Shown: piece after piece, positions 41,524 through 43,525 of the stretch
Numbering within the stretch: position 1 is the first letter of the stretch
Layout of the letters: every line of letters starts with the position of its first letter
Source of the DNA: Gammaproteobacteria bacterium
GTDB taxonomy: Bacteria > Pseudomonadota > Gammaproteobacteria > GCA-001735895
NCBI GenBank assembly: GCA_030066085.1
Contig: JASJCI010000038.1
Coordinates: 1-64,000, forward strand
Reading direction: 5' to 3'
Length of the DNA stretch: 64,000 nt
Made by a program: the position numbers and the translations under genes
Notes under the pieces: model-generated
The model's input: only the letters and a program-made list of their open reading frames with translations
Databases searched by the model: none
What the model was told of the DNA's origin: nothing

Positions 41524-42489
41524 ATGACCACAGCCCAAACGACAGCAACCGGGATCCAGTCAGTCGGCGTTTTCGGCGGCACCGGCTACGTCGGCAGTTA
41601 CCTGGTGGATGCCCTGCTGGCGCAGGGCTTTCACCCCGTTTTACTGGTGCGGCCAGGCAGCGAAGCGCGCGTCGAACAGCGCGATCGCTGCACCCTCGTC
41701 AGTGGCGACATCGATGACGAGGCGGCTATCCGCCAGGTCGCCGAGGCCAGCGACGCGCTGATTTACAATATCGGTATCCTGCGCGAGTTCCCGCAGCGCG
41801 GGATCAGTTTTCACGGCCTGCAGGAAGAAGCCGCGCGCCGCACCATGGACGCGGCGGTTGCCGCCGGCGTGCGCCGGTTCCTGCTGATGAGCGCCAACGG
41901 CGTCGAAGCCGGGCTGACGCCGTATCAGCGCAGCAAGCACGCGGCCGAACGTTACCTGCAGGGGCTGGAGCTGGACTGGACCATATTCCGGCCCTCGGTG
42001 CTGTTCGGCGATCCGCGCGGGCGGATGGAATTCGCCACCCAGCTGAGCGCCGAGATCATCGACTCGCCGCTGCCGGCGCCACTGTTTCACAACGGTCTGC
42101 TGCCCTTCGGCGCCGGTAACTTCACCATGTCGCCGGTGCATGTCGCCGACGTTGCCGCGGCCTTCGTCGCGGCGCTGCGCGATCCGGCGACCATCGGCAA
42201 AACCTTCCATCTCGGCGGTCCCGAGACCATCAGCTGGCGCGAAATCCTGACTCGCCTCGCCGCGGCGCGCGGTCGCAGCAAGCTGATGCTGCCGGCGCCG
42301 GCGCTCGGCGTGATGGCGGCGGCGGCGCTGCTCGACCGCTTCGAATCGTTTCCGATCACGCGCGACCAGGTTCGTATGCTGCTGGTGGGTAACGCCTGCG
42401 CGCCGGACGATCTCGAGGCCCTCGGCATCGATCCCCGGCCGTTTTCCGCGGACGGACTCCACTACCTCGAACCACGCGCAGCCGCCTGA
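41524..42489 (+). CDS. NAD(P)-binding atypical SDR (NDUFA9/NmrA-like)
   Basis: A protein of 321 aa from ATG 41524. The Rossmann motif GVFGGTGYVGSYL opens the protein, and RFLLMSANGVE with YQRSKHAAERYL gives the partly conserved Y-x3-K site. The family covers complex I NDUFA9-like and epimerase-type atypical SDRs, some acting in quinone or carotenoid metabolism. No role can be assigned. Transcribed rightwards after Nei with a 106-bp gap, and followed by the non-coding region with the candidate small RNA. Confidence 0.82.
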   Translation: MTTAQTTATGIQSVGVFGGTGYVGSYLVDALLAQGFHPVLLVRPGSEARVEQRDRCTLVSGDIDDEAAIRQVAEASDALIYNIGILREFPQRGISFHGLQEEAARRTMDAAVAAGVRRFLLMSANGVEAGLTPYQRSKHAAERYLQGLELDWTIFRPSVLFGDPRGRMEFATQLSAEIIDSPLPAPLFHNGLLPFGAGNFTMSPVHVADVAAAFVAALRDPATIGKTFHLGGPETISWREILTRLAAARGRSKLMLPAPALGVMAAAALLDRFESFPITRDQVRMLLVGNACAPDDLEALGIDPRPFSADGLHYLEPRAAA

Positions 42490-42743
42490 CCCAGGCCTGG
42501 ACATGGCGGCGCAATCGGGCGCGATCGCCGCTGGTTCCGCGCTCGGCGGTGCGATTTGATCAGCTTGCTCCCTGCGCATGACTTCCCGTCGGGGTATTCC
42601 CCGGGAACGGCGGGCACAGCTCCGGGCAGTAAAAGCGACTTCGTCCATCCGCTGCCCGCGAGTACTTGTCCGGAACCGGATTCTCGACACTGATTAGCTT
42701 GCGGACGTGATCCGGAATTTTTCCCCCGGCGTATACAGAATGA
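42490..42743. other. Non-coding region upstream of candidate small RNA
   Basis: 254 bp with no convincing gene. It holds two inverted repeats: a CCCG/CGGG-rich hairpin about 42586-42614 and CGGGCAG (42623-42629) with CTGCCCG (42652-42658). The first may end the preceding transcript. TATACA at 42732-42737 is a -10-like box for the RNA element that follows; no good -35 was found. Confidence 0.5.
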
Positions 42744-42867
42744 TTGCGCGGTGCGTTGCGGTTTCGTAGCCGGACAGACACCTACCCAGCCCACCAGGTT
42801 GGCTAATTCGTCCCCCTCCTCCAAGAATTAGCCTTTCCCGGTACGAAGACGCACCGCGCTTTTTTTT
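42744..42867 (+). ncRNA. Candidate structured small RNA with C-rich loop and terminator
   Basis: Nested pairing is visible. Outer stem: 42746-42756 with 42849-42859 (11 bp, perfect). Middle stem: TTCGTA+CCGG (42763-42773) with CCGG+TACGAA (42838-42847), 10 bp with one bulged G. Inner hairpin: GGCTAATTC (42801-42809) with GAATTAGCC (42825-42833), perfect. The 15-nt apical loop contains CCCCCTCCTCC (42812-42822), complementary to Shine-Dalgarno sequences. Eight T residues follow at 42860-42867. A -10-like TATACA ends 7 nt before the predicted start. Length ~124 nt. Not recognised as SRP RNA, 6S or tmRNA. It could otherwise be an unusually long terminator. Confidence 0.55.
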
Positions 42868-42895
42868 ACCCGTTGACTTAAACCAGCCCCCTGGC

Positions 42896-43525
42896 TTACC
42901 GCAGGTAGCCGATGACCGAGGCGAAATGGCAGGTGCTGCCGGCCAGGACAAAAAAATGCCAGATGCCGTGGGCATGGGTCAGGCGCTTGAGCGCGTCGAG
43001 CACGTAGAACACGACTCCGGTGGTGTAGGCGATACCACCCGCTACCAGCAACAGGACACCGCCGCGCGATATCGCGGCTTCGACGCTGTCGAAATCGAAC
43101 GCGATCGCCCAGCCCATGCCGAGGTAAATGATCAGCTGGCCGATTTTAACCACGCGACCGCGCAGAAATATCTCGCTCAGGATACCGGCGGCCGCCAGGC
43201 CCCAGACGATACCCAGGATCAGGAAGCCGTTGCCGTCGCGCAGGCCGATCAGCATGTAGGGTGTGTAGGTGCCCGCGATCAACAGGTAGATCGCGACATG
43301 ATCCAGCAGCTTGAACAGGCGCTTCAGCCGGGGAATGTAAAAGCTGTGGTACAGCGTCGACATGGTATAGAGCATGACCAGCGTCAGGCCGAAAACGGAG
43401 AAGCCGACCAGCGTCCACAGGTCGCGTGACTGGATGCCGACCGTGAGCAGCGCGCCGAAACCCACCAGCGCGAGCACGGCACCGACGAGATGGCTGATGG
43501 CGTTTAGTTTTTCTCCGTGATACAT
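42896..43525 (-). CDS. Hemolysin III / PAQR family membrane protein
   Basis: A protein of 209 aa with seven hydrophobic segments. Motifs: EKLNAISHLVGA at the start, STLYHSF, LDHVAIYLLIAGTYTP and a late GIWHFFVLAGSTCHF. These are the conserved Ser, His and Asp positions of PAQR/YqfA proteins, which form a metal-dependent hydrolase-like core in the membrane. The function in bacteria is unclear and is tied to membrane lipid balance in related YqfA work. Convergent with the candidate small RNA, whose T-run ends 29 bp from this stop codon. Confidence 0.9.
   Translation of the reverse strand: MYHGEKLNAISHLVGAVLALVGFGALLTVGIQSRDLWTLVGFSVFGLTLVMLYTMSTLYHSFYIPRLKRLFKLLDHVAIYLLIAGTYTPYMLIGLRDGNGFLILGIVWGLAAAGILSEIFLRGRVVKIGQLIIYLGMGWAIAFDFDSVEAAISRGGVLLLVAGGIAYTTGVVFYVLDALKRLTHAHGIWHFFVLAGSTCHFASVIGYLR

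Follow-up and report, generated by a model that had tools for sequence, protein, structure and literature searches.

The 64,000 nucleotides of contig JASJCI010000038.1 that were analyzed here (the window), from a gammaproteobacterial genome, contain a strongly folding stretch that lies between two convergent genes and ends in a run of eight thymines (T8). The locus raises the question of what this stretch is: the gene of a small RNA, the leader of a neighboring gene, or a terminator. If it is a small RNA, the further questions are what would switch it on and on what it would act. Features of the locus are collected in Table 1.

Table 1. Positions of the predicted RNA, its structural elements, its promoter motif, and its neighbors in the window
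Feature	Position	Strand	Remarks
Promoter motif TGATCC-N16-CGTA, RpoE-ChrR (ECF11) type	42708–42733	+	-35 at 42708–42713, -10 at 42730–42733; sole exact match in the window
Predicted small RNA	42740–42867	+	Inferred start ~42740, give or take a few nt; ends in T8
Closing stem P1, 11 bp	42746–42756/42849–42859	+	Helix 1: paired cells, 92.6%; two-sided changes, 5 of 12 pairs
Second stem, 10 bp, G42769 bulged	42763–42773/42838–42847	+	Helix 2: paired cells, 90.5%; two-sided changes, 6 of 10 pairs
Apical stem, 9 bp	42801–42809/42825–42833	+	Helix 3: paired cells, 75.4%
C-rich pyrimidine tract TCCCCCTCCTCC	42811–42822	+	Predicted mRNA-pairing site; mean unpaired probability 1.00
P1 3′ arm and T8, terminator-like end	42849–42867 (T8, 42860–42867)	+	
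Upstream neighbor, epimerase/SDR-like gene	41524–42489	+	Homolog also upstream of the RNA copy in G023
Convergent neighbor, TrhA/hemolysin III family gene	42896–43525	-	NF011669, 224 bits (cut-off, 80)

The predicted RNA is ~128 nt long. Stems of 11, 10 (with one bulge), and 9 bp followed by T8 had been reported in a first-pass annotation made from the sequence alone, together with the apical loop GTCCCCCTCCTCCAA, and all of these elements are present. The minimum free energy (MFE) of the window RNA is -50.6 kcal/mol, compared to a mean of -32.5 kcal/mol for shuffled sequences (z = -4.99), and none of 200 shuffles folded as well. A terminator scan of positions 42400–43000 returned no sites because it takes loops of 3–8 nt only, whereas the stem preceding T8 closes the whole RNA. 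The locus also differs from a simple intrinsic terminator, which would consist of a short-loop hairpin and a T-run with neither a promoter nor a conserved interior. The window copy has a frame of nine codons close to its 5′ end, and different peptides are encoded at this place in the relatives; no conserved peptide was recognized in this comparison, made by eye only.

Homologs were sought with covariance models in a set of 31 genomes of the genus, in which G000 is the genome of the window and the other G numbers are congeneric genomes. With a model of the single window sequence (R1), the own genome proved to contain another copy (47.9 bits, E = 5.7e-8), and five congeners contained one each (E = 9.6e-6 to 0.0066). 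A model of these seven copies (R2: the window, the second own-genome copy, and the five congeners) identified an eighth in G017 (65 bits). The promoter was included in neither model. The third model (R3), constructed with the promoter from the seven non-window copies and independent of the window sequence, recovered the window copy with a score of 58.3 bits (E = 1.2e-10 in 107,824 bases). Seven of the 31 congeneric genomes thus carry eight copies, two in G000 and one each in G015, G017, G023, G025, G029, and G030. The six carriers other than G000 are all labeled gammaproteobacteria, and G029 is the Olavius algarvensis Gamma 3 endosymbiont. Olavius is a marine worm, which makes this carrier a worm symbiont. 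BLASTN of 191 bases against 57 genomes, own included, returned short chance pieces only. A one-sequence covariance model was therefore able to detect an RNA family that BLASTN missed.

No copy was identified in 24 of the 31 congeners by covariance search, and a sample of 369 genomes from the class, searched with stricter filters and few candidates scored per genome, yielded a match in the own genome only. By eye, no relative was seen 3′ of trhA among 22 of 24 matched loci or 3′ of the epimerase gene in three relatives; the G023 copy, found later by R1, lies ~740 nt past its epimerase gene. A pattern scan of the named genomes yielded eight stretches, and since the pattern required the common closing stem, window-like copies would be missed. 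Six of these stretches belong to the six carriers other than G000, and the remaining two (L113 and L116) were chance. Weak matches in G014 (19.2 bits) and, as an echo on the minus strand, in G023 (20.5 bits) were also counted as chance. Sub-threshold matches in G021 and G033 (19.6 and 18.5 bits) and a 16.6-bit echo of the copy in the window were left out of the count of eight, and the final eight-copy alignment was made without two minus-strand echoes. Rfam 15 produced no match at the gathering score in the whole window. At looser E-values, the folded stretch had a single 8.9-bit match to BTH_s1 on the opposite strand, and the six homologous loci had five sub-threshold microRNA matches, located in L055 and away from the RNA.

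Compensatory changes in the stems among relatives, which the first-pass annotation had named as a check, are present. In an alignment of the eight copies fitted to the model, which leans towards its own structure, 87.3% of cells pair, compared to 41%–48% when partners are slid by 1–3 columns. Both sides changed in 14 of 31 pairs (reached by 8 of 500 shuffles), and 28 cells have changes on both sides (reached by 0 of 500 shuffles). A plain MAFFT alignment of seven copies, with a somewhat different structure, has 83.8% of cells paired, compared to 41%–45% when slid; covariation is weak in this alignment, with five pairs changed on both sides (matched by 105 of 500 shuffles). From these alignments, the closing and second stems appear well supported and the apical part uncertain. 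Relatives have a short hairpin before the tract (helix 4 in the MAFFT alignment; 82.9% of cells paired, three of six pairs changed on both sides) that competes with the 9-bp apical hairpin of the window. The apical hairpin form is found in both own-genome copies and is not clear in the other six. MFE folds place the tract in a hairpin loop in the two own-genome copies only; it runs single-stranded next to a short hairpin in G015, G023, G025, and G029 and pairs in part in G030. G017 adopts a different MFE fold that is not the rod. The T-run follows P1 in the other copies too and is weakest in G017.

A pyrimidine run of 9–17 nt with 7–11 C is present in all eight copies. Its mean unpaired probability is 0.61–1.00, compared to 0.23–0.39 for the remainder of each RNA. 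Conservation of a C-rich loop, a further check named in the first-pass annotation, thus holds for the tract itself but not for its position in a hairpin loop, which is limited to the two own-genome copies. The description of this loop as anti-Shine-Dalgarno fits in part: CCUCC occurs in six of eight tracts but CCUCCU in just three, and "C-rich" is the better term. When each copy is judged by itself, the length of the run is unusual in five cases (3 to 58 of 2,000 shuffles) and not unusual in three (126, 301, and 445 of 2,000 shuffles). The tract is conserved in composition more than in sequence and would thereby suit pairing with purine-rich ribosome-binding sites in general.

An exact TGATCC-N16-CGTA motif lies upstream of every copy, at a distance of 8–12 nt from the closing stem, even though the promoter was part of neither R1 nor R2. 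A TATACA box annotated in the first pass is present (42732–42737), but it overlaps the CGTA and fits better as a portion of an ECF-type -10 element; a sigma-70 scan of positions 42400–43000 found no sites. The exact motif occurs 24 times in the own genome, where base counting predicts ~8 by chance, so some of the 24 sites are due to chance, and several fall within long reading frames. There are 371 motif sites in the 31 genomes (summed by hand), compared to 24 for the reversed pattern, a control that is biased low by the CTAG in the reversed motif, a tetranucleotide that is scarce in many bacterial genomes. The own genome encodes an ECF sigma factor (TIGR02937, 87.6 bits, above the cut-off) followed by chrR (TIGR02451, 192.4 bits; cut-off, 124.5) behind an exact motif at L098, a sigma-chrR pair that was checked in this genome only. 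The exact motif also precedes a rubredoxin gene, a fasciclin gene, and both RNA copies in this genome. The RNA family is likely part of the RpoE-ChrR regulon. Published promoters are similar: that of Pos19 in Rhodobacter sphaeroides, given as TGATCC(N15)GCGTA, has the same spacing (PMC5036791), those of Shewanella RpoE2 contain TGATCC together with either CGTATT or CGTAAT, and for two genes the starts have been mapped (PMC4336711), and those of PSPTO_1043 in Pseudomonas syringae follow the same pattern (PMC5507510). The extended, lineage-specific ECF11 regulon is described as including numerous genes of unknown function (PMC6852236).

Several other motif sites were recorded. At L098/L099 (G000:C44 131030–131084), two back-to-back exact motifs are located between the ECF sigma-chrR and SnoaL-like/SDR gene pairs, forming a divergent, probably self-regulating promoter region; similar back-to-back motif pairs occur in G004, G013, G017, G026, G028, and G029. 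A sigma factor gene of the rpoH type, with regions 2 and 4 of sigma-70 in Pfam, lies 147 nt downstream of an exact motif at L088 (G000:C9 34404–34429), in parallel to rpoHII of Rhodobacter. A gene for a BLUF blue-light sensor starts 8 nt after the exact motif at L100 (G000:C45 4399–4424), a possible link between blue light and the RpoE-type regulon. At L108 and L109 (G000:C78 2956–3454), tandem, closely similar genes for small secreted proteins each have an exact motif before them. Rhodobacter rpoHII and the fasciclin gene RSP_1409 appear in one table of a photooxidative-stress paper (PMC7074977).

The main rival explanation is that the RNA acts in cis, as the leader of the adjacent downstream gene: RpoE would drive an attenuator that controls this gene through the terminator-like stem and the C-rich stretch, and the window copy would be a displaced relic. 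A same-strand gene does follow the T-run in seven of the eight copies, the window copy being the sole exception (fasciclin in four, OxyR-like in two, and SOUL-like in one; assigned by eye, with some domains checked). The fasciclin genes follow the second G000 copy and those of G023, G029, and G030 (Pfam checked in three, G029 by eye), and in G030 (L052) the fasciclin gene is followed in turn by an OxyR-like gene (by eye). OxyR-like genes come directly after the RNA in G015 (L054) and G017 (L110); the latter scores 246 bits against NF008361, below the cut-off of 329. The gene that follows the RNA in G025 is presumably SOUL-like, and a photolyase-domain gene is nearby. Good pairing of the tract with GGAGGAU, the fasciclin ribosome-binding site, also favors a leader. 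However, the window copy keeps every element with no same-strand gene downstream. The genes that follow the other copies are mutually unrelated, and neither oxyR start pairs with the tract. The fasciclin gene also has a separate promoter motif past the T-run, exact TGATCC-N16-CGTA in G000 and TGAACC-N16-CGTA in G023, G029, and G030 (by eye). We therefore consider a cis-acting leader unlikely. The fasciclin ribosome-binding site AUCCnGGAGGAU is found in four of four starts (L090, L052, L053, and L055) and could fold with its GGA in a small loop. This is a form favored by CsrA/RsmA proteins.

The proposal of a stand-alone small RNA, made in the first-pass annotation, is very probably correct, given seven homologs, compensatory stem changes, an own promoter motif, an end in a T-run, and the tract in eight of eight copies. 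The copies are best read as a new small-RNA family whose function we infer. Pairing energies between the two own-genome tracts and 15 gene starts were compared to shuffles, with the rpoE start set 3 nt late. Pairing is clearly above shuffles for the four fasciclin starts (GGAGGAU) and, with one tract, for the SnoaL start, slightly above for the chrR and rpoH starts, and not above for the remaining starts, including two oxyR starts. These energies are suggestive only, as any strong ribosome-binding site would score likewise. An Hfq gene is present in the own genome (100.2 bits).

In the proposed mechanism, singlet oxygen or peroxides would release the ECF11 sigma factor RpoE from its anti-sigma factor ChrR, and freed RpoE would transcribe positions 42740–42867 from the TGATCC-N16-CGTA promoter. 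The C-rich tract, predicted to be unpaired, would then pair with G-rich ribosome-binding sites of mRNAs and repress their translation. On balance, we think that the stretch probably is the gene of such a small regulatory RNA, transcribed by RpoE on exposure to singlet oxygen or peroxide and repressing mRNAs by pairing through its C-rich tract. The sigma factor that would read the promoter and the inducer are assigned from the published motif, and action in trans by C-rich/G-rich pairing would follow the examples of sX13 and GsrN. A broader version is offered tentatively, and we hold it to be rather doubtful: the RNA may be a singlet-oxygen-induced translation brake whose tract imitates the 3′ end of 16S rRNA. 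Once RpoE is freed, the RNA would vie with ribosomes for many mRNAs at once through their strong Shine-Dalgarno sites, and its action on the fasciclin mRNA, a member of the same regulon, would complete an incoherent feed-forward loop. The brake would work in gammaproteobacteria under light or oxygen stress, symbionts among them.

Alternatively, the RNA might bind a protein or sponge up other RNAs instead of pairing with ribosome-binding sites. High structure and a tract that keeps its composition over its exact sequence would be consistent with this, but known protein-binding RNA families are unmatched at Rfam cut-offs, and exposed C-rich tracts are described as acting on G-rich mRNA motifs in sX13 and GsrN (PMC3771888, PMC5869019), making this alternative quite improbable. 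A mere terminator with no RNA function would fit the location between convergent genes and the T8 on the plus strand, but it is very hard to reconcile with seven homologs that lie beside other genes, an exact promoter motif in all eight copies, conserved inner stems and C-rich tract, and an interior of ~90 nt that would be superfluous.

We searched the open-licence literature for the predicted regulatory RNA and for related systems. Among the matches listed, there was no report of this RNA, and small RNAs tied to ChrR or RpoE were from Rhodobacter, besides work on a Neisseria anti-sigma factor. The available text of the ECF11 papers on Shewanella and P. syringae does not use the term sRNA and has "small RNA" solely in a cited title (PMC4336711, PMC5507510). 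If the preferred reading is true, a C-rich RNA family under an RpoE-type promoter, near oxyR-, photolyase-, and fasciclin-type genes, would provide a post-transcriptional arm for the gammaproteobacterial singlet-oxygen response.

C-rich motifs are also carried by the CcsR ("cuckoo") and UCCUCC-type RNAs of alphaproteobacteria, which the first-pass annotation named for comparison. The window RNA is like these in its C-rich motif and its predicted photooxidative stress context, and it has no Rfam match. Unlike the window RNA, which would depend on RpoE, CcsR1 depends on RpoHI/RpoHII (PMC5036791). The sX13 RNA of Xanthomonas is gammaproteobacterial, 115 nt long, and strongly structured, and its C-rich loops repress mRNAs with G-rich motifs near their translation starts (PMC3771888). 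It differs in having three stem-loops with three C-rich loops, whereas the window RNA is one rod with one tract; it is also Hfq-independent, and the available text mentions no promoter link to RpoE-ChrR (PMC3771888). GsrN of Caulobacter is controlled by a stress sigma factor, pairs a C-rich loop with G-rich mRNA sites, and is tied to peroxide survival (PMC5869019). Its sigma factor is the general-stress ECF factor EcfG, not RpoE-ChrR, and it is described as activating katG (PMC5869019); we found no Rfam match or other link between GsrN and the window RNA. Pos19 (RSs0019) of R. sphaeroides, likened here by description, is a small RNA with the same motif and spacing, RpoE dependence, and a Rho-independent terminator (PMC5036791). 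It is, however, 219 nt long, alphaproteobacterial, and encodes a small protein (PMC5036791), whereas the window RNA, at its shorter predicted length, is gammaproteobacterial and has no conserved peptide by eye. With an accessible C-rich tract, a promoter motif, and a T-run, the window RNA has the makeup of an sX13- or GsrN-type RNA, its transcription being predicted. By analogy, it would resemble GsrN and sX13 in how it works and Pos19 in how it is switched on.
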